NCBI RefSeq assembly: GCF_949628265.1
Contig: NC_088789.1
Coordinates: 32,977,883-33,041,882 of the forward strand
DNA: 64,000 nucleotides
Origin: Cloeon dipterum
Taxonomy: Eukaryota; Arthropoda; Insecta; Ephemeroptera; Baetidae
Direction of reading: 5' to 3'
The notes under the pieces were generated by a model. That model made no database searches, had not been told where the DNA came from, and saw only the letters and a program-made list of their open reading frames with translations. Shown in pieces: positions 10,601 through 64,000 of the stretch. Position numbers and translations under genes: made by a program. Each line of letters begins with the position of its first letter. Position 1 is the stretch's first letter.

Positions 10601-13600
10601 GCATCGCAACCGTCACCTCCATCTTGACCTCTTCCTCCGTCACCACCTTCCGAAATCACAGTGAGCCAGCCTCCGTTCTGAACTTCAAGCGCCAGAATTG
10701 CCAGGTTCCCTGAACTGTAGCCGTCATGACCTGGTTCACCTTTCTCGGCATCCCAGTGGAGGGGTCCTCTTCTATCAAAATCATTTCCCCTATTACAAGA
10801 CCTCGCCTTTTCTTTCTCCTTGGCATGCTCACCTTTCAAACGTAAGTACGTGTTTTCTTTAACAACGTACACAATCGGAGCTATAAATTTTAGATGGGCG
10901 TGCTGGACCTCGAGGTTGCAATCAACAAAAATCTTTTCGCTCGCCATCACAACGAATTCCCCTTCAGTTGGTCCTTTTTGTTCTATCCTCTGTTTAATTT
11001 GGCTCAAGACCAAGAAACGAGAAAACAGCATGACCGAACCGTTCTTTAAACCTTCTTTGGCCTTTCTTATCTGGAATTCCGATGCCAACTTGTTGAAAAA
11101 CTGGAGGTTCAGGTCAGTGGGGGTCAATGACGCTGCGATGCGAGCGGTTTTGGAGCTAAAGCCCCAATTTCTCAGGTTTGAAGCAAAATCTATGAAGTTT
11201 TCTTTGTCCACTCTCTCGATTTCTTTCTCGACTGCTCCTCCCCTTACTTGAGGTTTATAGTTTCCAAAGTCATGAACCATGCCGTCAAGAAAAGAAGCAA
11301 AGTTCAGCTCTGCGGTTGCGTGATCTTGGATAGATGTCTTCAAGCTCAACATCAATGAGGTTTCAAGCTCGGTAAAGTCCCTGCCGATTAACTGGTAGAA
11401 AAATTTCGCGTTCTCCAGTTGAAACTGCACCTCAGCAAAGTTTCTCCCGTCTCCTTTAATTCTTCTTTTTGCAAACATCAAGAGCTGCTCCAGGTTGTTA
11501 ACGTTTTTCACGGCATTCAGGAAATTTGAACAAAATGCAATTGCATTTCGTGTCATTAGATTCGCCGGCCTCATGTCAACCGTTACTGCTGCGCCGACAT
11601 ATTGGGTCAAATGGTCTTGCAACTTCTGGATTTCGTTTCGGATGGCTGCCTCTGTGGCGGAAGAGAGTTCGTCTCGAATGTAAATCTTCGTTTCTGCTGC
11701 CACAGTTGCTTGGAATTCGTACGAGAATGGCTTTGAAAAATTCAGCCGATCGAACACAAATTTCCGCAGGATCTTCCTATTTCGTTCATCTGGTTCTAGC
11801 TTTTCACTCTGCGGAGCCAGAAAAAGTTGAACATTTGCTCTCAAGTACTCAAGTAGTCGGGCTTTTCTAAGAGAATCTTCAGCCTCTTTGTTGTCATTTC
11901 CTTCCTTAATTTCCTCAAGATGTTTTAAGGTACTGGAAAGATACTGTTTCACCTCTGTAAAAGCGGTTTTTATGTTTTCCATTCTCTCGACTTTCGTGAC
12001 GACTAAACCCATGGAACCCTCCAATTCGTCCAAATTTTCCCCGATCAAATTGGCTGTGTATTTGAGCGTGTTTGGGAACGAGTCGCGACTCCCGTGCTGC
12101 TTGAGGTTCGCGTAATTTTCCACGATGACTATTTTTACCTTGCGGCTCGAGTCCAACAACTTTTTGTTGAAATAGGCAGCCGCCAAATCGACTTTGGACC
12201 CTCTAGTGTCTGTAAATCCTGCGCAATCAACTATATGGATGCCGGTCTCCGAGTCTACGTCCACGTTGGGAACCAGCGTTTTCGATTTATGACTACTGTT
12301 GCTTCCAATTTTCACGTCGCCGTCCGTGAATATCAAACGATAATTTATTTTTTGATCACCGATCGACTGATTTTCTTCCGAGTTCTGGTACCATGACTCA
12401 AGTTCCGAAGTTTCCTTCGCCGATGGTTGAGTTAGGGTGATTTTTTCCACCCTTAGAGTCGGATCACCTCGGATATACTTGGAGAGGGTGCTTTTACCAG
12501 TGCCCGTGTTGCCCAACAGAACGATTGTGTCTTTGCCATCTACAATTTTCGTAGCTTGGTAGGTTTTCTTAAACAGAAACAGGAAAAAATCTAATAACAT
12601 ATCACATTCCCCTATATACTATATGCGTGCTGTGGACGCTATATTCGTGTTTCCATCCACGCCGCCGAAGGTGGCATTCCGTTCGGCACCCTGATTGAAA
12701 ACAATGGCTAGCCGCATTGTGCTCGCATCCGAAAGAGGAAGTTTTCACGGGGGTTGAAAGATCGCTAAAACAATCAGGAAAGTCATACAGGAGGGTAAAT
12801 TGAAGTTTAAAGCTCGTTTTCGGAGTTGAGTTGTAGTGAGCTTCAATTTTTCGACCGTCCGCCCTGAGTTTCTCGGACCCTAAATGCGCAGGCAAACTGA
12901 CCGACTGTTTGGTAAGTGCACATATGATATCAAGATTCGAACGCAGGGTCGAACCCCAGGGGCCCGCGCAGCAGGCTTTCAAACTCTAAAAGTATCGATA
13001 AACCTCGTTTTTTTACTTTAAATATTAATTTCTCCGGCCCTTTGGCTCTAATTTTTCTTAACCTTCGAATATTTTTCTATTAAATTCCGCCTCGAACGGT
13101 GTTTAAATCGACTATTTGGTCTTGGTGTTCATAAGGCCTCTTGGGTTTTATTTATTTTCTTTTTTTGCCGGGCGTGTTGGGTTTTGTTCGATTCATCTTA
13201 AAGAGTGCAATCGATTGAGCATAAATGTATTTATAAATTTGGTACTAATTATTTTAGGGGGCGAAAAGGCAATCTTTCAACCCCTTTTGAATGCAAGCAA
13301 AAAGCGGTTAAGCTTCGTTTACGACCAGGGTCACCAACCAAACGCCACCTTTGGCGGCATCGAAAGAATAATAAAAAACCAACACACTACGCGTATTGTT
13401 AATATAATGGGAGGATGAGTTGTCCGCGAAATAAGTCGCTATTTTTTGGCGTTGAAATTCTAAGGTGAGTATATTATATTAGCTAAAATTTATTGCTAAA
13501 GGATTCATGGTTTCGAACTGAGTGTCTGTCATCTTCGAATATATAGTATGAGAATTCCGGAAAAGACGCTCAGTTAAAAATTAGAATAAAAAATTGGTCT

Positions 13601-18899: not shown

Positions 18900-21800
18900 A
18901 TGGAAGAAATATTGAAAAAAGGTATACTTTGTAGTAAAAGCGGTTTAGACCCTCTCAAATAAGTACATGAAACATATGAGAAATAAGAAAAAATTATTTT
19001 CAAGGTGAAGCAGAAGGTTGTCCCATCGGGCAGGCAAACCTAGGTTTCTTTAAAACGGACGAACAGCAAAATATTCCCGCAAACGAGTAAAAATTTACCA
19101 ATAAAACTTTAACTCTTAAAATTTACTACCTTTTTGTTCAAAGCGTTTTTGTACTTGTCGTCCACTACGATTTTGAGAACCAAGCAATTGCTCGAAAAGG
19201 GGATTCTCATGACGTGCAGAACCTGAAAACAACGTTCGGAAAAAACAGGAATTGCAACTTTCGTAGTCTGAAGTCGCCAAAAAAAGAGCATTTGCTCGAT
19301 TTTCTTGGCGACCAGGACAAGCTCTTACGATTTTTCTCCTCAAAAGGTTTGCTCAGACATTACAAGATTAAATTTTTTAATAAATTTGTTCATTCTTTAG
19401 ATCCCCCAGAGGTATTTCTTCTTTTTGTGCTATCTCATGGATATGAAGATGGAATCATTTATACCGACCATTTCCTCGACGATCAGAAAACTTTCGCTCA
19501 TTTCACGACAGATGAAGTCTTTGACTCGATTAAAAAGTTGACCAAGTTCGAAAACAGCCTCAAACTCATCAATTTCGGCGTAGGTTCCATACTCAATTTT
19601 ACGGTTTACAGTTGTTCAAGGAAAGTACTCTAATTTCCAGCCCTGTCGCGGGGGATTACCCGATCCAAAATTTAACAGGAATAAGGAAGTGTGTGAAGAG
19701 ACGTACAAAAACCGAAACGCCAGTAGGATCACGTTCACTCCAGCAATCCACAATTTGGTGGTTTTCTATTCAACCGTTGAAAGTATGCCTCGACTTATTC
19801 ATAATTCACCTGAATTTTTAAAATTTCATCCATTTTAAAGCAACGCTAGCAAACAGAAATGAACTTGGGTCTTGGTTTGTACAAAAATACTGTGACTGTT
19901 TAAATCATACTGAGGAAAAGCCGTTGTTGATTTTCCTCTCGATGGTGCAGAACAGCATGCACTATACATCCTTGCCTAATTTGAAAACGGGCGAATCCCT
20001 GGGTCAGACGCCAGAGATAAAGATGTTCACTCAAGACCGACAATTCATCATATCAAGGTGCAGTGAGATTAGTTTGATTTAACTTAAATTTTAATTGGTT
20101 TTCTTTAAGGACACTGATTAATCCAGTGACATATCCGAACACTGATGGAAAAATGGCGAAACCTGGGTCAAATACGATACATTCCAAACAATTCACATGG
20201 AAGTCCGATGAAGGACAGAACGTTCGAGGTCGAAACGCATTCATTTTGTATGAGCAACATGATGAACATGTGGAAGAACTGGTTAAGTCAGTTCGCAACT
20301 TGGACTTCGAGACAAGATTATTTCGACTAAACAAACGCTCATTGGACTCCTACTTCAAAATCTGTAAGCTTCCAATTTTTGGTCGATTTCGTAATAGACT
20401 TTGATTCGTACGAATTTCTCAGGTAGCGGGTTAGAACACGACGTCGGCTGCATTTTGACATGCATGTTTTGTGAATTGAGTGAAAAAGATGACAAGGAAG
20501 TTTGCATACTTGTCGACCAAGAGAAGAAATCATTCACAGATATCCTGCACAGCTTCGTTGGCCCGAGAAACGCTCAGTGGATCGGACGGCCAAAAATATT
20601 TGTTCTAATTAATCAAGAGGCATTGGAACGTGACACAGTAAGTCATTGCTCATATTTAGACCTTGAATATAATCTAATTGAGTCCTTCTAAAAGCTTTTA
20701 CCAGAGAGAAAGTTTGATATTTCTGCTACGAATCACAGTGGCTGGCTGGTTCTGATTTTAAAGGATAAAGGTAACGAGAATATAAGCCAATATTTGCGTT
20801 TAAAAGATTTAAAATAATGCTTTCAATAGATTTGTTAGAAAAGCTGATCAGGATCTTCAAATGCGAGGATCTCCAAAAAGGAAAACCCCTTCAAGAACTT
20901 TTGTCTCCTTTGCTGATTTCTGAATCAAAGAAGAACAATGTTTTGCTCAACTCTACGCTGCAATACCTCCTCGACTTCCCCGACTGGCCACGCTCATTCG
21001 TCAGGCTAAGTTTCAGTTTGAGGGAAAATGAAAGCTCGAAGGTCAATATCTTTGAATTTGATGAGATGGTAAAAGAAGCGAAAAAATCATTTGAAAAAGG
21101 TCAAGTTTTGCTCATGAGTTCCGGTGCCGGTGCCGGAAAAACGACAGTTCTTAAAGAAATCACTTACCAACTCGGCAAATCAGACCCTGACTTGAAAATT
21201 TTGTATATCTCGCTGAAGAAACATTCGCTGAATATTTTGAAAATTCGAAACCTCATCAAATTCCTTGCGCATGCAACGCATCATTCCATAGACGATATCC
21301 AAAGGTTGATCGAAGAGAAAAAAGCAGTTGTTTTCTTAGACGGATTCGATGAAATCTGCCCCATTCTCAGAGAAAACGTTATCACACTGTTCCATGCATT
21401 AAAAGAAAGGCGAATTCCTACATTTATCGCAACGAGACCACACGAGGCAGAAATAATCAAGGAACGAATAAATTGCGAAGTACTTGTTGAGGTTGAACCT
21501 CTGGACAAAGAAAAGCAAATCGAGTTTTTGAAAATTGTAGCCGGAATGAATGAAGAGGAATGCATAGAGTTCATAAATGATTTTGAGGAAAAGGATATTT
21601 TGGAGAATCCACTGCACCTTTCACTACTAGCAACAATCAAAGGCGAAGGAAACTTGTATCAGATTTACGAAAAGGTCGTGGAAAAGAAACTTGAGCTCTG
21701 CTTAGTGAGAGATGGATACAATATTGACGACAGGACAACTTTCCCTCTAAAGATGGAATTGGCTTCGAGCCATCTTCAGCTGATTGCTCTGCGCTTCCTG

Positions 21801-24800
21801 AGGAATGACGAGAGCCTGATTGGACAAGGAATAAGTCAAGAAGACTTGGAAAAGATGAATGATTATGGCGTTGCAACTGTTCTGGACGGAGAAGTCACGT
21901 TTTTGCATCAGACATTTGCTGAATTTCTGGCCACAAAGCAATTCTTGAAGAATTTTGATTCGTCACAAGCATTGGATCCGGCCCTGTTCCAAGATAGTAC
22001 TTTTGCGCAGTGCAGGAAGTTTCTGGACATATTCTACTGCACTCTGGAAAAAGAGGAAGATGAAGATTTGATATATCACACTGAAGCTCTACTAGCTGTC
22101 GCCAAATCTATTGGCCCTGTATTATTCTTGAAGAAAGTCGTTGAAGATAACCTAAGACAAGTTTTCAGAATGCTTAAATCCAAAATTTCATTTCACGCAG
22201 AATCAAATGCGTTCATTTGCATAGAAAAGAGCCCAGAACTGTTGATGAGTGCAATCGGCAAAGAAGAAATCGCCGTTCAACTGCTGGAAATGAGAGTTGT
22301 TGATAAAACAGGCTTGGAAGAAATTTTGCCTGATTTGCTGCGAAATATTGAAGAGAATAATGCGGTTGTCATACTGAAGAAATTGAGAATGGAATTTTCG
22401 GATCTTCCACTTATGATTGAAGCCTGCTATTCATACGATTCTGAAACGAGCAAAAGGCTGATGAAAGTTGGATTTACAGCAATTCGAAATGATTTCGACA
22501 TTCTTCTCGACACGCTTATCCAGATTGGAATTCGTGCTGTTGATGCATTTGATGAAGAAGAAAACAGTCTCTTTGCGGCTTGCAGATATGGAAGTGTCAA
22601 GTGCTTGAGAGTTCTGCTCAAACACGGCGCTCAAAAAGTATTTTACGCTAGTACTCGCTATGATCCTTTGAATGTGGCCACAGAATTCGGTCATTTGGAC
22701 CTGGTGAAGTTCCTAATGGAAGAAAATCCCAGCTTATTCAAAAGAGATGAATCCACATTGGTTCTCGATGGGCTGCCAGACATTTGGAATCCTTTCCAAT
22801 ATGCTATCATGTACGGACGCAAAGAAATAGCCGCGTATTTTCTTTCAAAGTGCCCTTGTTTGATCGAAAGTAGAACGAAGGATGGAAAAAACCCAATGCA
22901 ACTGGCAGCTATTTTGAGAAAGTGGGAAGTACTCGAATGGCTAGCTCAGTTACCAAACACTGATATCAAATCTTTGATCCCTGACGGAGACAGTATAAAT
23001 TGGACGCAATTTGATCTTGAAAATTATGAGCACTACTTGATGCTTCAAGGAGAAGTCATTGAAAAAGATGAAAAGGGGAGAAGTGTCCTCCATTATGCTG
23101 CAAAATATGGTTATACTGACCTTGTTGCAAAATTCATCGAGGCCGGTGCCGACATCGAAGCCACGGACGTAGACGGCTGGAACGCGTTACACTTTGCTTG
23201 TCTTTTGGACAAAAATATTGAAACAATTAAGCTACTACATTCACGGAGCAAACAACTTGCTAAGACAAAGACAAGTAAAGGACAAACAGCTTTGCATATT
23301 TTTGCGCAATATTGTGACCAAAATGATTTTGGAAAAGCAATTTCGAGTAGCGTAGACATTGCGAGGTTTTTGTTTGAAGACGCTGGTGTTGATTTAAGTG
23401 CCAGGGACAATGAAGGAGATAGAGCTTCTTTTATAGCTGATGAAAGAGGATTAGACAAATCCATAATAATGTTTCTTACAGCACAACACATTGATCCCTC
23501 TGAAAAGTATGACTTGATGAATTCATCGGTGATTTTTTCCGTATCAGAAGCTGGTGATTTGCTTTCACTGCAACAATGGATTCAACAAGGCGGAGATTTG
23601 TCAATGAGAGATGAATCTGGACGTACGGCACTGCAATTAACGGAAGAGAAAGGGGAGTTTAGATTAATGAAGAAGAACGAAACTGGAGAGAATATACGGT
23701 TCAATGAACAAGAGAGGGAGGGTTCGCTCTTGCTAGCCTGTAAACAAAAGAACTGGGATAAGGTTAAAAATTTGCTTGAATCCAAGAATTTGAGCATCAA
23801 CAGGCAAGACAAAGATGGAAGAACGGCTCTACATTATGCCGCAGAAGAAGGACATTTTGGTTTGGTCTTCCAGTTGCTTAGCCAAAGAGCTGATATGCAT
23901 GTGAAGGATCACAATGGATGGACGGCGTTGCATTACGCCATTCTTACGAACAATACAGATTTGGTTCAAAAGCTGATCGACAGTGGTGCTGATCTCGACT
24001 CGAAAACTAAGAGGGGAGAGACAGCTCTGCACATCGCTGCCTATAAAGGCTTTACAGAATTAACGCAAAAATTGATTGAGTGCGGTGCGGATGTAAATTC
24101 TAAGAACAATCATGGTTTGACATGTTTAAACATCGCCACAGTTAATAGAAATCTGGATTTGTTGGAAGTTCTCTTAAAAAATAAAGCTGATGTAAACAAT
24201 GAATATAAGCTTTTTGGAATTACCCCTCTACACCATGCTGCACTAGAGAACTATCCAGAAATTTTAGAAATGCTTGTCGATCACGGTGCAGATGTGAATT
24301 TTCAAGATAAAGAAGGATGGACACCTCTGCACTTTGCTGCCAGGTATAATCCAGAACTGAGTCAAACGCTACTAGACCATGGTGCAGACGCGAATTCAAA
24401 AGATAATGATGGATGGACAGCTCTGCACTTTGCTGCAAGATTTAATCCAGATCTGAGTCAAATGCTGCTAGACCATGGTGCAGACGTGAATTCAAAAGAA
24501 ATTGATGGATGGACTCCTCTGCTCCTTGCTGCAAGGTTTTATCCAGAGCTGAGTAAAACGCTTTTAAATCATGGTGCTGATGTAAATTCAAATACAAAAA
24601 TGGGATCTTCTCCTCTGCACTTTGCTGCAAGATATAATCCAGAACTAAGTCAAACGCTGCTAGATCACGGTGCTGATGTAAATTCAAAAAATAATAATGG
24701 ATGGACAGCTCTGCACTACGCTGCAAGATTTAATCCAGATCTGAGTCAAATGCTACTAGATCATAGAGCAGACGTGAATTCAAAAGATAATGATGGATGG

Positions 24801-27800
24801 ACAGCTCTGCACTTTGCTGTAAGGTATATTCCAGAACTGAGTCAAACGCTACTAGACCATGGTGCAGACGCGAATTCAAAAGATAATGATGGATGGACAG
24901 CTCTGCACTACGCTGCAAGATTTAATCCAGATCTGAGTCAAATGCTACTAGATCATGGTGGGGATGTTAATGCAAAGACAAAAAGGGGATATACACCCCT
25001 GCACTATGCTGTATGGCATAATCCAGAACTGAGTCAAACGCTACTACATCACGGCGCTGATGTCAATTTGAAAGATAATGATGAATGGACACCTCTGCAC
25101 TTTGCTGCCAGGTATAATCCAGAACTGAGTCAAACGCTACTAGACCATAGAGCAGACGTGAATTCAAAAGATAATGATGGATGGACAGCTCTGCACTTTG
25201 CTGTAAGGTATATTCCAGAACTGAGTCAAACGCTACTAGACCATGGTGCAGACGCGAATTCAAAAGATAATGATGGATGGACAGCTCTGCACTACGCTGC
25301 AAGATTTAATCCAGATCTGAGTCAAATGCTACTAGATCATGGTGCTCAGGTGAATTCAAAGACAAAAGCTAGACGGACTCCTCTTCACTTTGCTGCAAGG
25401 TATAATCCAGAACTGAGTCAAACGCTACTAGACCATGGTGCAGACGTGAATTCAAAAGATAATGATGGATGGACAGCTCTGCACTACGCTGCAAGATTTA
25501 ATCCAGAACTGAGTCAACAGCTCCTAGATCACGGCGCTGATGTCAATTCAAAAGATAATGATGGATGGACAGCTCTGCACTACGCTGCAAGATTTAATCC
25601 AGAACTGAGTCAACAGCTCCTAGATCACGGCGCTGATGTCCATTCAAAAGATAGTGATGGATGGACAGCTCTGCACTTTGCTGCAAGATTTAATCCAGAT
25701 CTGAGTCAAATGCTGCTAGATCATGGTGCTCAGGTGAATTCAAAGACAAAAGCTGGACGGACTCCTCTTCACTTTGCTGCAAGGTATAATCCAGAACTGA
25801 GTCAAACGCTACTAGACCATGGTGCAGACGCGAATTCAAAAGATAATGATGGATGGACAGCTCTGCACTACGCTGCAAGATTTAATCCAGAACTGAGTCA
25901 ACAGCTACTAGATCACGGCGCTGATATCCATTCAAAAGATAATGATGGATGGACAGCTCTGCACTACGCTGCAAGATTTAATCCAGAACTGAGTCAACAG
26001 CTACTAGATCACGGCGCTGATGTCCATTCAAAAGATAATGATGGATGGACAGCTCTGCACTTTGCTGCAAGATTTAATCCAGATCTGAGTCAAACGCTGC
26101 TAGATCATGGTGCTCAGGTGAATTCAAAGACAAAATATGGACGGACTCCTCTTCTCTTTGCTGCCAGATATAATCCAGAACTGAGTCAAACACTACTAGA
26201 CCATGGTGCAGACGCGAATTCAAAAGATAATGATGGATGGACAGCTCTGCACTACGCTGCAAGATTTAATCCAGAACTGAGTCAACAGCTACTAGATCAC
26301 GGCGCTGATGTCCATTCAAAAGATAGTGATGGATGGACAGCTCTGCACTTTGCTGCAAGATTTAATCCAGATCTGAGTCAAATGCTGCTAGACCATGGTG
26401 CAGACGTGAATTCAAAGACAAAAGCTGGACGGACTCCTCTTCACTTTGCTGCAAGGTATAATCCAGATCTGAGTCAAAAGTTGCTGGACCATGGTGCTGC
26501 TGTGTATCTAGACGATAGAGAAGGATGGACAGCTCTGCACGTTGCTGCAAGGTGTAATCCAAAATTAGCACTAAAGCTGATCGACCACGCCATGAATGCG
26601 GATATTTTGGAATCAAAATTCAAAAATGAATGGACTGCGTTGCATCTTGCTATGGAAATGAACTGCCCAGAATCAGTGCAAAAGCTTCTCGTCAAGGGTG
26701 CTGATGTTAATTTACAAAATGGTGATGGATGCAAGGCCCTTCAATTAGCCAAAGCACAGAACTATCGAGCACTGGAGGAAATGCTCCTCGACCAGAGAAT
26801 TTTTAAGAGTTTAAAACTCACGACAGGAACTTCGGCTCTAACACTCGCCATTGAATCAAATAATTTGACAGTTGCTGAAATTCTTATTAATAATGGCGGT
26901 GATTTGACGGTTCAGGACGAGAAAGGAATTAACATTTTACAACATGTTTTGAAGAACTTTGAAATGGTAAAATACTTGCATGAGAAAAACGGTGAATTAG
27001 TGAAGCAAGTGACAAACGATGGAAGCACTTACCTGCACCTTGCAATTGACAACGACGACTGTCCCCTTGAAGTGATCCTTTGGCTCATTGAAGAAATCAA
27101 AATTGATGCTAATGCGACGAATGAATTCGGTGAAACGGCGTTCATGATTGCTTGTAAAAAGAATCGAAGAGACGTCGTCGAATATTTGTTGGCAAACAAG
27201 GGCATAGACTTAAGCAAAGGAGATGGAGATGGGAGGACTGCCCTGCACCATGCCGCCAGATCAGGATGTGTGGATTTAGTGCAAAATCTGCTCGATCATG
27301 GCGCTGATTTAACAAAAAGGGATAATTACAACACAAATGTCCTGTTCTATGGATTGAAAAGTAAGGAAATGATTTTATATCTAAACAGGAAAAATTCGGA
27401 ATTCATAAAAGCAGTGGACACTCTACAAAACACTTTACTTCTGTATGCGATCGAATTTTTTTATATGGTTGATAGGGATGTGGTTCATTGGCTAATCAAT
27501 GAATCCGGAATCGATCTAAATGCCGTGGACGGTGAGGGCAATTCAGCTTTTATTGTGGCCTGTATGAGGAGAAAGTGGGATTTTGTCGAAACTCTATTGA
27601 CGAAGGATGTGGATATCCAAGTTAAAGATGAAGAAGGAAAAAACCCTCTACATTATGCTGCAGAATCAGGATACTTTGATTTGGTGCAGAAGCTTATCGA
27701 ACGTGGTGTCAATCCGACTTTGAAAGACAATCTCGGAAAGAACACAATGCACTACGCATTGCAACACTTGGATATTGTTAAAAGCTTGGACAGAGAACTG

Positions 27801-28874
27801 GCGAAGGAAGTGACCAAAGATAAAAACACTTCCTTGCACATTGCAATCGAGATCTATGATTATTCGATTGAAGTGATTCGGTGGCTCTTAAATGAAGCTC
27901 AAGTAGATGAAAATGCTAAAAATGAAAATGGTGAAACTGCGTTGATGACAGCTTGTTCGAAAAATAGATTTGACGTCTTACAAATTCTTCTGGAAAAAAA
28001 AGCAGACATCAGCATTCAGGACAACCAAGGACAGACTGCTCTGCACCACGCCGCGAGATCGGGACACTTAGACTTAATTAAAATGCTGTTTGATCATTTA
28101 GACTTGAAGAAGGACGAAGATGGCTTTTCAGACATCCATCAGACTCTCGTTGAACTTGTCAAAGAAGTTGACGAGGAGGACAACACATTGTTAATCTTGG
28201 CGATGAAAAGTAGTGAAAAGTTTGACGAGAAGGTGATTGGTTGGTTGGTCGAGGACATCACATTAGATTTGAATGCGGTCAACTGCAATGGTGAATCAGC
28301 GCTTCTTCTCGCTTGCAAGCACAGGAAATGGGACGCTGTTGACATTTTGCTGTCCAGAGACGACACTCACATCGGTTCCAAAGATCAGAAAGAAAGAACT
28401 CCTTTGCACTGGGCCGCAGTGGCTGGAAACCTGGCTGTAGTTCAGAGGCTGGTCGAGCGTGGCGCTGACCTGACTTTGAAGGACAGCGACGGAATGAACG
28501 TGATGCACCATGCCCTGAAACACGTCGAAACGGTAAAATTCCTTCACAATCTGAACAATGGGCTTGTGACGGAAATAACTAAAAACGGAAGCACCTGTTT
28601 GCACCTGGCAGTCATTCGCGGCTCAACTGAAGTGATTCGGTTGTTAGTCGATGAGGGAATCGAAGTCGATCTGGACAAAAGCAATGAGCTGGGTTTGACC
28701 GCGCTTTTGCTTGCATGCCGCAGGAATATGTGGGAGGTCGTCGGTCTTTTGGTGGAGAACAACGTGGACGTCAGCAAAACAGACCGAGCGGGTAAAAATG
28801 TCCTCAACTACGCTGAAGAAGCAGACCATTTCGATTTGGTAGAAAAACTGTATGTGTTAAGCGCTCCTAAGTAA
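18900..28874 (+). CDS. Caspase / pseudo-caspase / NACHT / ankyrin-repeat protein, gene A
   Basis: Nine coding exons join without a phase error or stop: 18900-18921, 19005-19086, 19144-19579, 19641-19782, 19841-20057, 20110-20363, 20423-20637, 20695-20770, 20830-28874; 3162 residues. Residues 36-290 are a caspase (C14): VFVLVVHYDFEN strand, ARKGD, catalytic SHG (H133), CRGG (C182), then YSTV, GSWF and the closing GQTPEIKMF-like p10 segment. Residues about 318-456 repeat the caspase p20 pattern (AFILYEQ, GRPKIFVL) but have FCELS and NQEAL where His and Cys belong, so this second fold should be inactive. NACHT follows: Walker A GAGAGKTT (K585), Walker B FLDGFDE (652-656), sensor IATRP, and FLHQTFAEFLA in the winged-helix part. 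From about 1060 to the end lie some 60 ankyrin repeats, including 23 near-identical 32-residue units. Inferred role: a cytosolic NLR-like sensor with a built-in protease. Whether one mRNA spans all exons needs transcript data. Confidence 0.85.
24315..26522 (+). repeat. 96-bp tandem array, 23 units, in ankyrin region of gene A
   Basis: Twenty-three consecutive in-frame 96-bp units encode 32-residue ankyrin repeats of the type GWTALHFAARFNPDLSQ plus LLDHGADVNSKDND. Each unit is one residue shorter than the usual 33, at the turn between the two helices (NP in place of GH plus one). Units 11/15/19, 12/16/20 and 13/17/21 match each other best, so a 384-bp four-unit higher-order repeat underlies units 11-22; units 5-7 and 9-11 form another four-unit duplication. 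Confidence 0.95.
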
Positions 28875-29640
28875 TTTTATTTTATATTTTCTATTAACTT
28901 TAAAGGGAAAATAATATTTTTGAGCTTTATGTTGCCTTCATATTAATTGAAAATTCGTGTTTTTATCTTGTATAACTAACTTTAAATATTGTATCCTTTA
29001 GTTTGGTTTTTATATATTTTAAAGTGAAAAATTAAATTGTTCATAATATAATATTTGACTTTTAATTTTTAAATCTCTTCACCCACTTACATAAATAAAA
29101 ATGCTGCCTTTCGTAAGCGGGGAATAAATAAAGTAGAACATAAGGCATCTATTTTTTAAAAATGAGATTTGCAAATGAATGCATGTTATACTTACTCCAA
29201 TTATTTTCTCAATTTTTAGTTTTTACCATGCAAAGATTTATTTTGTCAATTGTACAATGTGAAATTCGCTACGACACTTATTTAAACAGAGAAATGAGAT
29301 GATTATAAAAATATTATATTTTAAACTCAGTCTATTATTCACACCAATTTACAATGATTCCACTCTGGCGTGCAATTTATTTCACAAGTTGAGAGTTTAA
29401 AAAGTTTTCTATACATAAAAATGAATGTAAATTTATAAAACAATTTTTCTAAATTTATGTGTCTCTACTAATTTTAAATTGCACTATTAACTATTTATCG
29501 TTAGAAATCCTGGGCAAATTAATGTTACAATATTTGAAGAAATTAAATTTGAGCGTGGTGCATTGAAGGATTGTTTAAAAGAAATGAATAAAGGAAATTT
29601 CAGATTTTTATTATTATTAAAACAATGTCTCACGGCGGAG
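28875..29640 (+). other. 3' untranslated and flanking region of gene A
   Basis: Very AT-rich sequence with AATAAA at 29094-29099 and again at 29123-29128, either of which could be the poly(A) signal. Closely matches 62679-63450. No gene is seen. Confidence 0.6.
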
Positions 29641-29935
29641 GAAAGGAGGATTTTATCTGCAGGGTTGGCGTCGAGGATGACCTTGCTTGTTGAGCTCGGC
29701 CAGAGGCTGCTCGCGGCTCTGCGTCGGCGTGGCTCCGCTTGCTCGCCTCCAGCTGGGGCTGCATCAGCCTGTTGACGTAGGAAACCTCTCCGAGCGCCGA
29801 CTCCTCGCGACTCAGGGCGCACCCGACACTCCGCTCGTTCGCTTCACTTCCTCCAAGCCACTCGACGCCACACCCTCCACTGCCAAAATGATCAATTTGC
29901 AATCGGCTTTCAAAGGGAAAGGTAAGGTCCGCCAT
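29640..29935 (+). other. GC-rich block with candidate first coding exon MINLQSAFKGK, copy A
   Basis: A GC-rich island in AT-rich surroundings. An ATG at 29888 in good insect context (CCAAAATG) opens MINLQSAFKGK and reaches a strong donor, GTAAGG, at 29922. This could be promoter, 5' UTR and first coding exon of a gene whose later exons I cannot identify. The minus strand also has a coiled-coil-like reading frame (ALGEVSYVNRLMQPQLEA), so an alternative is an exon fragment on that strand. The copy at 63450-63760 has a 9-bp insertion in the untranslated part. Confidence 0.35.
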
Positions 29936-29939
29936 TTGT

Positions 29940-30371
29940 AATTCATATATAGAATCATTCAAACTATAAATTGTTATTAGGACTTGTTTTAATATCAATA
30001 TATTTAGCCATTTCTGTTTGTCCAATTTGGCACGTCTGAGGTCTTTAAAGCCACCATATTTTAATGTTTATATAGAACGGTGTACTAACCGTCCGAGATC
30101 ATCTCCCAATTTTAACTTTAGTTGTATTTTTTTACCATTAAATCCCCTTCATTATATGCATTATAAATTTCATTACGGCGTGTTCGAGACCTTGACCTTG
30201 AAGGCCACTATTTTATTTATTTTTTTGAAATGCAACCGTTGTACCGTTTCCTTACTTGTTAATATTACATGGCTTTAGTTCCTATTAGTAATCAAGTTGC
30301 TATTTAACTAACAAATTAGGTGTCTGTGAACTCTCTAAAGCCACCATTCAGTTTATTCTCTTTAGTCATTA
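29940..30371. other. Intergenic, no feature seen
   Basis: AT-rich sequence inside or just past the end of the large duplication. No coding region is supported. Confidence 0.4.
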
Positions 30372-35760: not shown

Positions 35761-36059
35761 AATATATTTTTTTAGAGCCGATTTTTAAATTTTTGTTTCA
35801 AAATGCTATTCTGGCCAGTTTGACACCTTGAATATCCGGTTTCCAAACCCGTCAGGTTTCAGCAACAATTTTTAATTCAAGGTTCATCACATCCACGTCA
35901 ACCAAAGCAGCGTTTTTAAACCCTTCCCTTACTTGTCGTACCCTGAGCGAATTAAAAAAGGCTTGAAAATGCGGAAGTTGGTTTAAATCAGGTTTCGTCC
36001 ATTCCGAACAAACCAGATCAACTGTCAAATTTTAAAAGTAATGTTTAAACCTTTCTTAC

Positions 36060-36330
36060 GTCGACGACCTGGTTCAGGGGCTGGACGTGTGCCACCTGCG
36101 GCGCCGTCACAGTCAGCGCCACCCGCATCGCCTCCTCGCCAGCCGAATTATTCACCCAGCACAAATACTTTCCACGCTCCTCCGGGCGAACCTGAATTTT
36201 ATTTAATATAATTAAAGGTGGAAATTCAGGGTCAGGGTAAAACTCACCTTTGAGATTCTTAAAAGACCTGGCGCCATCATGGAGAGTCGCTGACCCACTG
36301 AGTAATAGCTCGCTGTCCTCATGGTACCAC
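36060..36330 (-). pseudogene. Dscam-like immunoglobulin exons, isolated fragment
   Basis: Two minus-strand exons with good splice sites: 36248-36330 (WYHEDSELLLSGSATLHDG) and 36060-36191 (VRPEERGKYLCWVNNSAGEE, then LTVTAP and VVDV). The second carries the D/E-x-G-x-Y-x-C Ig motif and closely resembles the Ig3/Ig4 junction of arthropod Dscam; the first resembles the variable exon-6 type half domain just before it. Joining them directly gives a stop: exon one ends in phase 1 and exon two begins in phase 0. No further Ig exons are seen on either side. Read as a Dscam fragment, probably non-functional. Confidence 0.5.
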
Positions 36331-36593
36331 CTGAAAGGTCGAAAACTATTTATTGTAAGGAAAATTGAGTGCAACCTGGTGGAGTTTCAATGGTGCTCAA
36401 ATTTTATCTTTAAGTAAATTAAATTTTAAAATCAATGAAAATTAAAAAAAGAATTCTTTCAAATCCACGAACTTTCTCAATTTGAAACGCATGGCAGCTT
36501 ATGAACCAACCACTTCAGTTCGAAGGTGCGCCCTGCAGGGTCGAAGGGCCCTTGAAACCTCTGCAGGAGCGAATTTTAGCCTTTTTAATTTAC

Positions 36594-45663: not shown

Positions 45664-45876
45664 TGATATAATGTTATGTTGGCACGCCACTAGTTGGCAG
45701 CCCTGCGGTAAATAAAAGCTTCAGTTAAACAATGATGCTGAATAAGGGAACACACTCGTTTAATTGTTTCTCCCTTATAAGCCTAAAATCATACTAAGAA
45801 TCAGTCTGGACGTCCGACGAAGGAATCCGGACAACAGCGGCGAATCTCTCAAATAAGATTAGCAGCCGCTGTATCA
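45664..45876 (+). repeat. 5' LTR of the gypsy element
   Basis: 213 bp, TGATATAATG at the start and GCTGTATCA at the end. AATAAAAGCTT inside (about 45711) may act as the poly(A) signal. Identical to the 3' LTR. Confidence 0.95.
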
Positions 45877-45877
45877 A

Positions 45878-45890
45878 TTGGCGACGAGGA
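45878..45890 (+). promoter_or_regulatory. Primer binding site, tRNA-Ser type
   Basis: TGGCGACGAGGAT starts two bases after the 5' LTR and is complementary to the 3' end expected of tRNA-Ser(GCU) (ATCCTCGTCG plus CCA). Confidence 0.75.
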
Positions 45891-45936
45891 TTACCGTGAT
45901 AAATCGCGGTAAAAAAGATCATCACGTGAGTGCAGC

Positions 45937-50100: not shown

Positions 50101-50311
50101 ACATTTTCAGTTTAGTGATTCAAGCCAAAAGTGAAAAGTGAATTTAAAATTAATTAATTGTTAAGCAAGAAAAACCTCAAGATAAATTTTGTGATCTCCA
50201 TTGCATTGTAAGTCAAGCCATCACTCAAGACTATAAATGATGTAATTTATTTCGTGATATTTTCCCTATCAGTCAAATTCCTGATCTCCTCAATTCAAAA
50301 AATTTGATGTC

Positions 50312-50325
50312 TCAAAGGGGGAGGA
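50312..50325 (+). promoter_or_regulatory. Polypurine tract of the gypsy element
   Basis: CAAAGGGGGAGGA just before the 3' LTR, the usual plus-strand primer. Confidence 0.8.
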
Positions 50326-50327
50326 TT

Positions 50328-50540
50328 TGATATAATGTTATGTTGGCACGCCACTAGTTGGCAGCCCTGCGGTAAATAAAAGCTTCAGTTAAACAATGAT
50401 GCTGAATAAGGGAACACACTCGTTTAATTGTTTCTCCCTTATAAGCCTAAAATCATACTAAGAATCAGTCTGGACGTCCGACGAAGGAATCCGGACAACA
50501 GCGGCGAATCTCTCAAATAAGATTAGCAGCCGCTGTATCA
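50328..50540 (+). repeat. 3' LTR of the gypsy element
   Basis: 213 bp, same sequence as 45664-45876 on direct reading. Confidence 0.95.
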
Positions 50541-50545
50541 ATTTG

Positions 50546-54499: not shown

Positions 54500-57400
54500 A
54501 TGGAGGAGATATTGAAAACAGGTATTGAGCTTTAATTTATAATAATATATTAAATGAATTTAAGTGGGTGATACAGAAAATGTATTACAAAACGGTTAAC
54601 AACATAAACAAATACAAACCATTTTTCCCAAGGTGAAGAAGAAGGTCGTCCAATCGGGAGGGCAAACCTAGGATTCTTTAAAACGGACGCGCTGATAAAT
54701 AACGCAAACGAGTAAAAATATTCCATCAAATCTTCAACTCTGAAATTAACTGCCCTTTTGTTCAAAGCGTCTTTGTCCTTGTCGTCCACTATGATTTTGA
54801 GAACCAAGCAATTGCTCGGAAAGGGGATTATCAAGACGTGCAGAACCTGAAAACATCGTTCGGAAAAAACAGGAATTGCAACTTTCGTGATCTTAAATCA
54901 CCGAAAAAAGAGCATTTGCTCGATTTTCTTGGCGACCAGGACAAGCTCTTACGATTTTTCTCCTCAAAAGGTTTGCTCAGACTTTACAAGATTAAATTTT
55001 TTAATAAATTTGTTCATTCTTTAGATCCCCCAGACGTGTTTCTTCTTTTTGTGCTATCTCATGGATATGAAGATGGAATCATTTATACCGACCATTTCCT
55101 CGACGATCAGAAAACTTTCGCTCATTTCACGACAGATGAAGTCTTCGACTCGATCAAAAAGTTGACCAAGTTCGAAAAGTGCCTCAAACTGATCAATTTC
55201 GGCGTAGGTTCCATACTCAATTTTACGGTTTACAGTTGTTCAAGGAAAGTACTCTAATTTCCAGCCCTGTCGCGGGGGATTACCCGATCCAAAATTTAAC
55301 AGGAATAAGGAAGTGTGTGAAGAGACGTACAAAAACCGAAACGCCAGTAGGATCACGTTCACTCCAGCAATCCACAATTTGGTGGTTTTCTATTCAACCG
55401 TTGAAAGTATGCCTCGACTTATTCATAATTCACCTGAATTTTTAAAATATCATCCCTTTTAAAGCAACGCTAGCAAACAGAAATGAACATGGGTCTTGGT
55501 TTGTACAAAAATACTGTGACTGTTTAAATCATACTGAGGAAAAGCCGTTGTTGACATTCCTCTCGACGGTGCAGAACAGCATGCACTATACATCCTTGCC
55601 TAATTTGAAAACAGGCGAATCCCTGGGTCAGACGCCAGAGATAAAGATGTTCACTCAAGACCGAGAATTCATCATATCAAGGTGCAGTGAGATTAGTTTG
55701 ATTTAACTTAAATTTTAATTGGTTTTCTTTAAGGACACTGATTGCTCCAGTGACATATCTGTACACTGATGGAAAAATGGCGAAACCTGGGTCAAATACG
55801 ATACATTCCAAACAATTCACATGGAAGTCCGATGAAGGACAGAACGTTCGAGGTCGAAACGCATTCATTTTGTATGAGCAACATGATGAACATGTGGAAG
55901 AACTGGTTAAGTCAGTTCGTAACTTGGACTTCGAGACAAGATTATTTCGACTAAACGAACGCTCATTGGACTCCTACTTCAAAATCTGTAAGCATCCAAT
56001 TTTTGGTCGATTTCGTAATAGACTTTGATTCGTACAATATCTCAGGTAGCGGGTTAGAACACGACGTCGGCTGCATTTTGACATGTATGTTTGGTGAAGT
56101 GAGTGAAAAAGATGACAAGGAAGTTTGCATACTTGTCGACCAAGAGAAGAAATCATTTACAGATATTCTGCACAGCTTCGTTGGCCCGAGAAACCCTCAG
56201 TGGATCGGACGGCCAAAAATATTTCTTCTAATTAATCAAGAGGCATTGGAACGTGACACAGTAAGTCATTGCTCATATTTTGAACTTGTAGGAATAATTT
56301 AATTTAACCCTTCTAAAAGCTTTTACCAGAGAGAGTGTTTGATATTTCTGCTACGAATCACAGTGGCTGGCTGGTTCTGATTTTAAAGGATAAAGGTAAC
56401 GAGAATATAAGCCAATATTTGCGTTTAAAAGATTTAAAATAATATTTTTAATAGATTTGTTAGAAAAGCTGATCAGGATCTTCAAATGCGAGGATATCCA
56501 AAAAGGAAAACACCTTCAAGAACTTTTGTATCCTTTGATGATTTCTGAATCAAAGAAGAACAATGTTTTGCTCAACTCTACGCTGCAATACCTCCTCGAC
56601 TTCCCCGACTGGCCACGCTCATTCGTCAGGCTAAGTTTCAGTTTGAGGGAAAATGAAAGCTCGAAGGTCAATATCTTTGAATTTGATGAGATGGTAAAAG
56701 AAGCGAAAAAATCATTTGAAAAAGGTCAAGTTTTGCTCATGAGTTCCGGTGCCGGTGCCGGAAAAACGACAGTTCTTAAAGAAATCACTTACCAACTCGG
56801 CAAATCAGACCCTGACTTGAAAATTTTGTATATCTCGCTGAAGAAACATTCGCTGAATATTTTGAAAATTCGAAACCTCATCAAATTCCTTGCGCATGCA
56901 ACGCATCATTCCATAGACGATATCCAAAGGTTGATCGAAGAGAAAAAAGCAGTTGTTTTCTTAGACGGATTCGATGAAATCTGCCCCATTCTCAGAGAAA
57001 ACGTTATCACACTGTTCCATGCATTAAAAGAAAGGCGAATTCCTACATTTATCGCAACGAGACCACACGAGGCAGAAATAATCAAGGAACGAATAAATTG
57101 CGAAGTACTTGTTGAGGTTGAACCTCTGGACAAAGAAAAGCAAATCGAGTTTTTGAAAATTGTAGCCGGAATGAATGAAAAGGAATGCATAGAGTTCATA
57201 AATGATTTTGAGGAAAAGGATATTTTGGAGAATCCACTGCACCTTTCACTACTAGCAACAATCAAAGGCGAAGGAAACTTGTATCAGATTTACGAAAAGG
57301 TCGTGGAAAAGAAACTTGAGCTCTGCTTAGTGAGAGATGGATACAATATTGACGACAGGACAACTTTCCCTCTAAAGATGGAATTGGCTTCGAGCCATCT

Positions 57401-60400
57401 TCAGCTGATTGCTCTGCGCTTCCTGAGGAATGACGAGAGCCTGATTGGACAAGGAATAAGTCAAGAAGACTTGGAAAAGATGAATGATTATGGCGTTGCA
57501 ACTGTTCTGGACGGAGAAGTCACGTTTTTGCATCAGACATTTGCTGAATTTCTGGCCACAAAGCAATTCTTGAAGAATTTTGATTCGTCACAAGCATTGG
57601 ATCCGGCCCTGTTCCAAGATAGTACTTTTGCGCAGTGCAGGAAGTTTCTGGACATATTCTACTGCACTCTGGAAAAAGAGGAAGATGAAGATTTGATATA
57701 TCACACTGAAGCTCTACTAGCTGTCGCCAAATCTATTGGCCCTGTATTATTCTTGAAGAAAGTCGTTGAAGATAACCTAAGACAAGTTTTCAGAATGCTT
57801 AAATCCAAAATTTCATTTCACGCAGAATCAAATGCGTTCATTTGCATAGAAAAGAGCCCAGAACTGTTGATGAGTGCAATCGGCAGAGAAGAAATCGCCG
57901 TTCAACTGCTGGAAATGGGAGTTCTTGATAAAACAGGCTTGGAAGAAATTTTGCCTGATTTGCTGCGAAATATTGAAGAGAATAATGCGGTTGTCATACT
58001 GAAGAAATTGAGAATGGAATTTTCGGATCTTCCACTTATGATTGAAGCCTGCTATTCATACGATTCTGAAACGAGCAAAAGGCTCAAGAAAGTTGGATTT
58101 GCAGCAATTCGAAATGATTTTGACGTACTTCTCGACATGCTTATCCAGATTGGAATTCGTGCTGTTGAAGCATTTGATGAAGAAGAAAACAGTCTCTTTG
58201 CGGCTTGCAGATATGGAAGTGTCAAGTGCTTTAGAGTTCTGCTCAAAAACAGGGCTCAAAAAGTAATTTATGGCAGTACCCTCTATGATCCTTTGAATGT
58301 GGCCACAGAATTCGGTCATTTGGACCTGGTGAAGTTCCTAATGGATGAAAATCCCAGCTTATTCAAACGAGACGAAGGAACATTGGTTCTTGATGGACTG
58401 CCAGACATTTGGAACCCTTTCCAATATGCAATCTTGTACGGACGCAAAGAAATAGCCGCATATTTTCTTTCAAAGTGCCCATCTTTGAATGATATTAGAA
58501 CGAAGGGTGGAAAAAACCCAATGCAACTGGCAGCTATCTTGAGAAAGTGGAAAATATTGGAATGGCTAGCTCACTTACCAAACACTGATATCAAATCTTT
58601 GATCCCTGACGAAGAGAGTGTACATTGGACGCAATTTGAGCTGGAAAATTATGAGCACTTCTTGATGCTTCAAGGCGGAGTCAAAGAAAAGGATAAAAAG
58701 GGGAGAAGTGTCCTTCATTACGCTGCAAAATATGGTTATGCTGACCTTGTTGCAAAATTCATCGAAGCCGGTGCCGACATCGAAGCCACGGACGTTGACG
58801 GCTGGAACGCGTTACACTTTGCTTGTCTGTTAGACAAAAATATTGAAACCATTAAGCTACTACATTCACGGAGCAAACAACTTGCTAAGACAATGACAAG
58901 TAAAGGACAAACAGCTTTGCATATTTTGGCGCAATATTGCAACCCAAATGATTTTGGAACAGCTATTTCGAGTAACGTAGATATTGCGAGGTTTTTGTTT
59001 GAAGACGCTGGAGTCGATTTAAGTGTCACGGATGGATATGGTAATTCAGTTCCAAGAATAGCTGCTGACAGGGAGCTACACAAATCATTAACCATGTTTC
59101 TAAGAGCACAACACATTGATCCATCTGCAAAGTATGACTTGATGAATTCAACGGTGATTTTCTCCGTATCAGAAGCTGGCGATTTGCTGTCACTGCAGCA
59201 ATGGATTCAACAAGGCGGAGATTTGTCAATGAGAGATGAATCTGGACGTACGGCACTGCAATTAATGGAAGGGAAAGGAGAGTTTAGATTAAAGCAGAAA
59301 AAGAACGAAACTGGACAGAATATTCGGTTCAATGAACAAGAGAGGGAGGGTTCGCTCTTGCTTGCCTGTAAACAAAAGAGCTGGGATAAGGTTAAAAATT
59401 TGCTTGAATCCAAGAAATTGAGCATCAATAGGCAAGACAAAGATGGAAGAACGGCTCTTCACTATGCCGCAGAAGAAGGAAATTTGTGTATAGTTCAACA
59501 GATGCTTAATAAAAAAGCTGATGCACATGTGAAGGATCACAATGGATGGACTGCGTTGCATTGCGCCATTCTAATGAACAATGAAAATTTAGTTCAAAAG
59601 ATGATCGACAGTGGTGCTGATGTCAACTCGAAAACTAAGAGAGGAGAGACAGCTCTGCACCTCGCAGCCTACAAAGGCTATACAGAATTAACGATAAAAT
59701 TGATACAATGTGGTGCGGATGTAAATTCCAAGAACAATCATGGTTTGACTTGTTTAAACATCGCTACAGTTAATAGAAATCTGGATTTGTTTGAAGTTCT
59801 CTTAAAAAATAAAGCTGATGTAAACAATGAATATAAGCTATTTGGAAATACCCCTCTGCACCATGCTGCACTAGCGAACTATCCAGAAATTATAGAAATG
59901 CTGGTCAATCACGGTGCCGATGTGAATTTACAAAATAAAAATGGATGGACAGCTCTGCACTTAGCTGCAAGGCATAATCCAGAACTGAGTCAAACGCTAC
60001 TAGATCACGGAGCTGATGTTAATTCAAAACATAATGATGGATGGACAGCTCTGCACTTTGTTACACAACATAATCCAGAACTGAGTCAAACGCTGCTTGA
60101 TCATGGTGCTGATGTGAATTCAAAAGATAATGATAGATGGACAGCTCTGCACTACGCTGCAATACATAATCCAGAACTGAGTCAAACGCTGATTGATCAT
60201 GGTGCTGATGTGAATTCAAAAGATAATGATGGATGGACAGCTCTGCACGTTGCTGCAAGGTATAATCCAGAACTGAGTCAAACGCTGCTGGACCATGGTG
60301 CTTATGTGTATTTAGAAGATAGTGAAGGAAGGACAGCTCTGCACGATGCAGCAAGGTATAATCCAAAATTAGCACTAAAGCTGATCGACCACGCCATGAA

Positions 60401-62678
60401 TGCGGATATTTTGGAATCAAAATTCAAAAATGAATGGACTGCGTTGCATCTTGGAATGGAAGTGAACTGCCCAGAATCAGTTCAAAAGCTTCTCGTCAAG
60501 GGCGCTGATGTTAATTCACAAAATGGTGATGGATGCAAGGCCCTTCAATTAGCCAAAGCACAGAACTATCGAGCACTGGAGGAAATGCTCCTCGACCAGA
60601 GAATTTTTAAGAGTTTAAAACTCAAGACAGGAACTTCAGCTCTAACACTTGCCATTGAATCAAATAATCTGACCGTTGCTGAGAATCTAATTAATAATGG
60701 CGGTGATTTGACGGTTCAGGATGAGAAAGGGATTAACATCTTACAACATGCTTTGAAGAACTTTGAAATGGTAAAATACTTGCATGAGAAAAACAGTGAA
60801 TTAGTGAAACAAGTGACAAACGATGGAAGCACTTATCTGCACCTTGCAATTGACAACGACGATTGTCCCCTTGAAGTGATCCTTTGGCTCATTGAAGATA
60901 TTAAAATCGATGTGAATGGGACGAATGAATTCGGTGAGACGCCGTTCATGATTGCTTGTAGTAAGAATCGAAGTGACGTCGTCGAATATTTGTTGACAAA
61001 TAAGGGCATCGACTTGAGCAAAGAAGATAGACGTGGAGGGACTGCCTTGCACCATGCCGTCACATCAGGATGTGTGGATTTAGTGCAAAATCTGCTTGAT
61101 CGTGGCGCTGATTTGACAAAAAAGGACAATTACAACAGAAATGTCCTGTTCTATGGATTAAAAAGAATAGAAATGATTTTATATTTAAGCAGGAAAAACA
61201 TGGAATTCGTTAAAGAAGTGGACTCGAATCAAAGCACATTACTTATGTACGCAATCATAGATAGTTATGTGGTTGAAAGAGATGTGGTTCATTGGCTGAT
61301 TGAGGAATCTGGAATCGATCTAAATGCCGTGGACCAAAATGGGAATTCAGCAATAAATTGTGCCTGCGTGAAGAGAATGTGGGATTTTGTTGAAATTCTG
61401 TTGACGAAGGATGTGGATATCCGAATTAAAAATGCAAATGGTGAAAACCTTCTTCACCTCGCTGCAGAATCAGGAAACTCGGATTTGGTGCAGAAGCTGA
61501 TTGAACGTGGTATCAATCCGACTTTGAAAGACAATCTCGGAAAGAATACATTGCACTACGCATTGCAACACTTTGACATTGTTAAACATTTGGACAGAGA
61601 ACTTGCGAAGGAAGTGACAGAAGATAAAAACACTTCATTGCACCTTGCAATCAATATGTATGACTATTCGATTGAAGTGATTCGGTGGCTCTTAGATGAA
61701 GCTCAAGTAGACGTAAACGCTAAAAATGAAAATGGCGAGACTGCGTTGATGACAGCTTGTTCGAAAAATAGATTTGACGTCATCCAAATTCTTCTGGAAA
61801 ATAAAGCAGACGTCAGCATTCAGGACAACAAAGGACGAACTGCTCTGCACCACGCCGCAAGATCAGGTCACTTAGACATGATTAAAATGCTGTTTGATCA
61901 TATGGCCTCAGAGAAGAACGAAGATGGCTCCCTGAACATTACACAGACTCTCGTCGAGCTTGTCAAACACGTTGACAAGGAGGACAACACATTGTTAACC
62001 TTGGCGATGGAAAGTAACAAAAAGTTAGACGAGAAAGTGATTAGTTGGCTGGTCGATGACATCAAATTAGATTTGAATGCGGTCAACTGCAATGGCGAAT
62101 CAGCGCTTCTTCTCGCTTGCAAGCACAGAAAATGGGACGCCGTTGACATTTTGCTGTCCAGAGACGACACTGACATCGGTTCCAAAGATCAGAAAGAAAG
62201 AACTGCTTTGCACTGGGCCGCGGCGTCTGGAAACCTGGCTGTAGTTCAGAGGCTGGTCGAGCGTGGCGCTGATTTAACTTTGAAGGACAGCGACGGAATG
62301 AACGTGATGCACCATGCCCTGAGAGATGTCGAAACAGTAAAAGTCTTTCACAAACTGAACAAAGAGCTTGTGACGGAAATAACTAAAAACGGAAGCACCT
62401 GTTTGCACCTGGCAGTCATTCGCGGCTCACCCGAAGTGATTCGTTGGCTCATCGATGAGGGAATCGAAGTCGATCTGGACAAAAGCAATTATCTTGGTTT
62501 GACCGCTCTTTCGCTTGCATGCCGCAGGAATATGTGGGAGGTCGTCGGTCTTTTGGTGGAGAACAACGTGGACATCAGCAAAACAGACCGAGCGGGTAAA
62601 AATGTCCTCAACTACGCCGAAGAAGCAAAACATTTCGATTTGGTAGAAAAACTGCGTGTGTTAAGCGATCCTAAGTAA
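54500..62678 (+). CDS. Caspase / pseudo-caspase / NACHT / ankyrin-repeat protein, gene B
   Basis: Nine exons join in phase: 54500-54521, 54633-54711, 54768-55203, 55265-55406, 55465-55681, 55734-55987, 56046-56260, 56320-56395, 56455-62678; 2554 residues. Exon lengths equal those of gene A except exon 2 (3 bp shorter) and exon 9. The caspase domain keeps SHG (H132) and CRGG (C181), YSTV and GSWF. The second caspase fold again lacks both catalytic residues (FGEVS and NQEAL at the expected places). The NACHT Walker A lysine is about K584, and FLDGFDE begins near 650. The 32-residue ankyrin array has 4 units against 23 in gene A; the other ankyrin repeats correspond one to one. Two intact copies with all catalytic residues argue that both are under selection. 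Gene B has no ATG at the 5' edge of exon 9, which supports the upstream exons as the true N-terminus. Confidence 0.85.
59943..60326 (+). repeat. 96-bp tandem array, 4 units, in ankyrin region of gene B
   Basis: Four 96-bp units of the same type as in gene A (HNPELSQTLLDHGADVNSK). The flanking divergent repeats on both sides match gene A, so the difference of 19 units (1824 bp) is confined to the array and accounts for essentially the whole length difference of the two proteins. Confidence 0.95.
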
Positions 62679-63760: not shown

Positions 63761-64000
63761 TTCATATATAATATCATTCAAACTATAAATTGTTATTAGG
63801 ACTTGTTTTAATATCAATATCTTTAGCCATTTCTGTTTGTCGAATTTGGCGCGTCTGAGGTCTTTAAAGCCACCATATTTTATTTTTATATAGAACGGTG
63901 TACTAACCGTCCGAGATCATCTCCCAATTTTAACTTTAGTTGTATTTTTCACCATTAAATCTCCTTCATTATGTGCATTATAAATTTCATTACGGCGCAT
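63761..64000. other. Window end, duplication continues
   Basis: Matches 29942-30181; no gene seen. Confidence 0.4.

Follow-up and report, generated by a model that had tools for sequence, protein, structure and literature searches.

The window analysed here, a 64,000-nucleotide stretch of the genome of the mayfly Cloeon dipterum (NC_088789.1, positions 32,977,883 to 33,041,882), carries two tandem genes, copies A and B, each predicted to encode a caspase, a NACHT switch and an ankyrin array in a single protein. Copy A was read from genomic DNA as a spliced open reading frame that runs from the ATG at 18900 to a stop codon ending at 28874, in ten exons separated by nine introns of 52-83 nt, all of them GT-AG. 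The predicted protein has 3144 residues, and exon 10 is one uninterrupted open frame of 8045 nt. A first-pass annotation had proposed a single spliced protein here; both of its ends proved exact to the base, and the start of exon 9 is corrected to 20695. The features are as follows.

18900..18921, forward strand: copy A exon 1, start codon, MEEILKK; the start is the same as in the RefSeq model of copy B
19005..19086, forward strand: copy A exon 2, where the caspase region begins
19144..19346, forward strand: copy A exon 3, caspase p20, with the S1-pocket Arg in ARKG
19401..19579, forward strand: copy A exon 4, p20 of the caspase; the catalytic His lies in SHG, whose S codon is at 19433
19641..19782, forward strand: copy A exon 5, with the catalytic Cys (in PCRGG) and YSTV, which belongs to p10
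19841..20057, forward strand: copy A exon 6, caspase p10, GSWF
20110..20363, forward strand: copy A exon 7, linker, then the start of the pseudocaspase
20423..20637, forward strand: copy A exon 8, pseudocaspase core, without SHG and CRG motifs
20695..20770, forward strand: copy A exon 9, end of the pseudocaspase, strand NHSGWLVLIL
20830..28874, forward strand: copy A exon 10, which encodes the NACHT, the NLR-type helical part and the ankyrin repeats and includes the stop
19016..20058 (spliced), forward strand: copy A caspase domain, residues 12-282 by family profile
20189..20849 (spliced), forward strand: copy A pseudocaspase, residues 309-470
21054..22406, forward strand: copy A NACHT and the NLR-type region that follows, residues 539-989, with Walker motifs A at 21123 and B at 21327
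24279..26561, forward strand: homogeneous ankyrin array in copy A; the 96-bp unit occurs 23.8 times, with a higher-order period of 384 bp
54500..62678, forward strand: copy B, 2536 aa, a tandem paralog that shares the ten-exon structure
59908..60365, forward strand: homogeneous ankyrin array in copy B; the 96-bp unit occurs 4.8 times

Several lines of evidence indicate that this architecture, as read from the sequence, is close to certain to be real. Copy A matches PF00656 (65.9 bits, cut-off 21.4, residues 39-273), PF05729 (36.5 bits, cut-off 26.7) and PF00023, and the same exons are present in copy B and in paralogs, so that the proposed union of caspase, NACHT and ankyrin repeats in one protein held up. 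Against PDB sequences the caspase part gave five matches, all to animal caspases (best E 2.1e-4). Both p20 and p10 of the Caspase (C14A) fold are present, and the fold was recovered in structure models of paralogs. The caspase motifs described at first pass are all there in copy A: SHG (residue 114), GPCRGG (162), YSTV and GSWF. The active-site pentapeptide is GPCRG and not QACRG, and the canonical QACXG of Caspase (C14A) is thus lacking.

A second caspase-like domain, which the first-pass annotation did not mention, sits between the caspase and the NACHT. It has neither the catalytic Cys nor the catalytic His motif, as in a pseudocaspase of the cFLIP type. Its best match runs only to caspase-7 residue 255, and the last part of p10, which in caspases carries the dimer strand, seems to be missing. 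The family proteins scanned with Pfam gave no match to a death-effector domain.

The C-terminal part of copy A contains 42 PF00023 stretches. The ankyrin array of the first-pass annotation is therefore upheld, while its figure of about 60 repeats is an upper count derived from array length. Within the homogeneous array, 24 units of 32 aa have a mean identity of 80% in DNA and 72% in protein. Copies A and B differ in length by 608 residues, which is exactly 19 × 32.

Copy B bears on whether the caspase and the NACHT-ankyrin parts belong to one gene. Its first 1325 residues are identical to the RefSeq model LOC135943844 (P0159), including all nine junctions, and that model joins the caspase and NACHT exons. 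Could two adjoining genes, one for a caspase and one for a NACHT-ankyrin protein, have been wrongly joined by hand splicing? The join depends on a single short intron (20771-20829), read from genomic DNA alone; copy A has an in-frame ATG directly ahead of exon 10; and in one paralog (L041, C2:36079500-36089300) the last intron, which separates the pseudocaspase exons from the NACHT exon, extends to about 2.5 kb, compared with 59 nt in copy A. However, intron 9 and its frame are conserved in copy B and in three paralogs (L039-L041), copy B lacks the in-frame ATG, and caspase and NACHT are joined in 66 of 72 annotated or modelled proteins. A poly(A) site of their own for the caspase exons, named at first pass as the observation that would speak for two genes, was not seen: positions 19535-20830 of copy A contain neither AATAAA nor ATTAAA, and eight such signals occur 3' of the gene, in 28874-30300. 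We rejected the two-gene reading on the kept intron 9, the RefSeq model and the paralogs, and consider it very improbable.

The two copies are poorly suited to measuring selection. Their NACHT regions (21054-22406 in A, 56679-58031 in B) show 0 synonymous differences in 296 sites, and synonymous divergence (dS) in the caspase part is 0.12. Recent gene conversion between the NACHT regions is likely on this pattern, and because of it comparison of A with B is a weak test; we therefore used the farther paralogs L039-L041. In these, all nine introns are conserved with their GT and AG ends, and no stop interrupts the 1004-1007 codons read, from exon 2 into the beginning of exon 10. Their ratios of non-synonymous to synonymous substitution rates (dN/dS) relative to copy A are, in order, 0.32, 0.23 and 0.24 for the caspase, 0.24, 0.22 and 0.40 for the pseudocaspase, and 0.24, 0.19 and 0.20 for the NACHT. 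All three domains are under purifying selection (dN/dS 0.19-0.40).

The duplicated stretch exceeds the genes: 1.3 kb 3' of the stop codons (28875-30180 and 62679-63997) is 94% identical, and short matching stretches, some of them inverted, occur upstream of both copies. Between them lies a Gypsy-like long terminal repeat element (45664-50543) with a long open frame at 45913-50097. The two direct repeats of this element, each of 216 bp (45664-45879 and 50328-50543), match at 100% of positions, indicating that the insertion is young. Such an element, together with the many tandem copies of the family, is what one might cite for a decaying or mobile-element-driven family without function. The long open frames, the dN/dS values and conservation across two genera argue the opposite; a pseudogene was rejected on dN/dS against the three paralogs, and we find the idea of a functionless family barely credible.

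Sequence comparisons place the gene in a large mayfly family, of which the window holds two tandem members. The nearest database proteins of copy A are from Cloeon dipterum, and proteins combining caspase, NACHT and ankyrin by precomputed Pfam assignment came, among the matches listed, from Cloeon dipterum and Neocloeon triangulifer only, both Baetidae. The protein searches comprised 36 rows from the best 7998 candidates scored, 120 of 163 listed, and 62 rows in a profile search limited to proteins of about 860-2735 aa that share 5-residue words, by which a restriction to mayflies is not established. Caspase, pseudocaspase and NACHT follow one another in that order in 66 of the 72 family proteins (70 from databases plus A and B). 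These counts are redundant, the names pointing to two Cloeon annotation sets; when 65 of the 66 were clustered at 92%, 62 groups remained, Cloeon being represented in 42 and Neocloeon in 20. A tree of 64 rows (quick method, midpoint root) had three species-label changes: one set consists of 42 Cloeon rows and a second of 16 Neocloeon rows, four further rows from both species group together, and two long rows stand alone. On this tree the fusion probably predates the divergence of the genera, with separate amplification in each afterwards.

The Cloeon genome supports the same conclusion about family size. A caspase-pseudocaspase query gave 231 exon matches, the best 150 of which form 61 clusters (39 on C4, 15 on C2); 59 of these have a NACHT downstream within 8 kb and two have none. 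PF05729 matched the genome 101 times. The family model is unspecific, with matches in 11 of 14 control prokaryote genomes (above the cut-off in 3), and some of the 101 may therefore not be NLR-like. A caspase lies upstream of the NACHT in 82 cases: a family caspase on the same strand within ≤6 kb in 59, a Pfam C14 match in 4 and a match to a C2-type query in 19. The caspases used for this pairing were 150 of the 231 matches plus 39 of 211 (on or near C2 and unpaired NACHT), and some unpaired NACHT may adjoin a caspase beyond the matches listed. Tandem clustering could inflate the pairing; the count for the opposite orientation, which served as control, was 3.

The switch region resembles that of NLRs. 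A structure model of a paralog matched NLRC4 (E 3e-12) and NOD2 (E 1.4e-10) in Foldseek, and the evidence for the NACHT fold comes solely from this model; the single sequence gave nothing below E 0.15 against PDB. No leucine-rich repeat (LRR) family is among the 23 Pfam matches of copy A, whose C-terminal repeats match ankyrin families. With a NACHT but no LRR, copy A is therefore NLR-like and not an NLR in the strict sense of NACHT plus LRR (PMC11508797). In copy A the caspase begins after no more than about 35 residues, and neither its ten exons (E ≤ 1) nor 4 of 4 paralogs (E ≤ 0.01) have a Pfam match to CARD, PYD, DD or DED; a death-fold prodomain was rejected on these results, although a further exon upstream of those read might still encode one. 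Some paralogs (P0025, P0026, P0030, P0032 and P0007) have about 110 extra conserved residues ahead of the caspase, starting ..YFAYCLD.. or similar, which had no Pfam match in the three scanned.

We favor, as somewhat better than an even proposition, the interpretation that the window encodes two NLR-like receptors with their own caspase, acting by adaptor-free proximity activation. It builds on the observed gene structure and domain order, the catalytic dyad, purifying selection, the folds of paralog models, family expansion and the difference in repeat number. That the receptor carries its own caspase instead of recruiting one, as proposed at first pass, is supported by the domain order, the kept dyad, copy B and the paralogs. 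Ligand sensing, oligomerisation, protease activity, a role for the pseudocaspase and a part in immunity are what we infer beyond this. In the proposed mechanism the ankyrin array would keep the NACHT closed in its ADP state and would also bind the ligand. Ligand binding would trigger nucleotide exchange in the NACHT and formation of a ring; this ring, suggested by domain order only, would gather several N-terminal caspase domains and activate them by proximity, with no need of an adaptor of the CARD, PYD or death-domain kind. The activated caspases would cleave substrates, leading to cell death or an immune output, and the pseudocaspase, placed between caspase and NACHT, might position or restrain the caspase.

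A number of observations weigh against this interpretation. The NLRC4 match of the paralog model has a low TM-score (0.24; root-mean-square deviation 9.6 over 379 columns), and the 50 rows that VIA-align shows are caspases only. No protein identical to copy A was among the matches listed in the three protein searches. The RefSeq model of copy B diverges after residue 1325 and stops at 1344 aa, compared with an open frame of 2536 aa, which we take as an annotation break within the repeats. Six of the 72 family proteins lack at least one domain (three have pseudocaspase and NACHT, two NACHT only, one caspase and pseudocaspase), and no caspase was found for 19 of the 101 genomic NACHT matches. 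Among the 58 complete caspase domains in the 66 caspase-pseudocaspase-NACHT proteins, one has Ser in place of the catalytic Cys; the Gln position of QACXG is occupied by Gly in 54 domains, by Ala in 3 and by Glu in 1; and the second S1 Arg, aligned with R207, is present in just 40.

These last substitutions, with Pro at the Ala position in 52 of the 58, are what would be expected if the caspase of the same receptor were inactive, or shifted in specificity by GPCRG, and acted, alone or together with the pseudocaspase, in oligomerisation or in docking of substrates. In caspases the S1 pocket is lined by this Gln and by two Arg (R64 and R207 in caspase-3 numbering), and the clear pseudocaspase within the same protein means that domains of this family can lose catalysis. 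However, the catalytic His is kept in 58 of 58 and the Cys in 57, with both present in copies A and B, and a scaffold would need neither; the caspase dN/dS of 0.23-0.32 against the three paralogs points the same way. The Arg aligned with R64 is kept in 56, with Lys in 2. The conserved dyad speaks for a protease, and the predicted change in the S1 pocket leaves its cleavage specificity open. We regard the inactive or altered caspase as an unlikely explanation, if the most serious of the alternatives.

A one-piece caspase receptor might also work outside microbial defence, for example in telling self from non-self, in quality control of the germline or in removing cells during development. Ankyrin arrays of a similar kind occur in fungal NLRs that are tied to non-self recognition in the available part of PMC4986451; yet expanded, diverging copy numbers in both species and a difference in repeat number would be usual for pathogen-facing receptors. 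We hold such a role to be improbable. Returning to the receptor activated by proximity, we give about even weight to its fullest form, a self-contained mayfly inflammasome in which a single polypeptide unites the sensor, the switch, an active caspase and a regulatory pseudocaspase, which would be the main NACHT receptor type of the animal and would change rapidly in ankyrin length.

If this is correct, one protein may do work that usually needs a chain of separate proteins, and animals would have invented the caspase-STAND design independently. It would also contradict the view, as given in the portion of PMC11508797 available, that arthropods are without inflammasome-type NLRs. An active caspase would mean that an animal has a working inflammasome made in one piece and free of adaptors, would provide a natural system for proximity activation with a pseudocaspase in cis, and would open up the intracellular immunity of an early-branching lineage of winged insects. 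One gene product, placed in a foreign cell, should suffice to link recognition with proteolysis, which makes the proposal directly testable.

Elsewhere in the window, the reverse strand has a single open frame of 1639 aa at 7702-12618 with a P-loop (GNTGTGKS) and no Pfam family above its cut-off, and an open frame at 36048-36386 that resembles, judged by eye, an immunoglobulin-type domain exon.

The family belongs among the STAND/NLR-like receptors, as a variant. As in NLRC4 and NOD2, both matched by the paralog model, an N-terminal effector, a central NACHT and C-terminal repeats follow one another, but the mayfly effector is a caspase itself and not a CARD, a pseudocaspase is added, and the repeats are ankyrin and not LRR. 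On the usual view, an animal NLR is connected to its caspase by a recruitment domain or an adaptor. Pairing of an active caspase with a catalytically dead caspase-like domain is known from caspase-8 and cFLIP; in the mayfly both domains are in one chain, the end of p10 is seemingly missing and no death-effector domains were found. Bacterial and fungal caspase-NACHT proteins share the logic of a protease on a STAND switch.

In bacterial conflict systems caspases are effectors and NACHT is a more sporadic partner, as far as the available text of PMC7159879 goes. Fungal NACHT-ANK NLRs likewise combine an effector, a NACHT and ankyrin arrays with highly alike, near-identical units and repeat-number polymorphism, recalling the difference between copies A and B; their effectors, in the part of PMC4986451 seen, are PNP_UDP or sesB-like and 'caspase' is mentioned once, whereas the mayfly caspase matches animal caspases. 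Further comparisons are offered, in part, by work on placozoans (PMC6321704), on bacterial systems (PMC8195603) and in PMC2246300. Among animals, a 2024 survey describes arthropod NLRs without an N-terminal effector domain and concludes from this that the inflammasome is presumably absent (PMC11508797, partial text), and cnidarian NACHT partners include 35 Pfam domains, caspase not being among the examples listed in the accessible part of PMC8260672. In open-licence literature (titles, abstract openings and the top rows of broad searches) we found no mayfly NACHT, no animal caspase-NACHT protein and no animal layout of caspase, dead caspase, NLR-type switch and ankyrin sensor, in agreement with the first-pass annotation, which knew of no animal protein in this order. 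The available sections of PMC2575513, which give NACHT as absent from Drosophila, list no caspase-NACHT fusion, and the amphioxus LRR-caspase and TNFR-caspase hybrids there keep QACXG, with no pseudocaspase mentioned; but, like the mayfly proteins, they have receptor parts fused straight to a caspase, and were proposed as a direct link from recognition to death.
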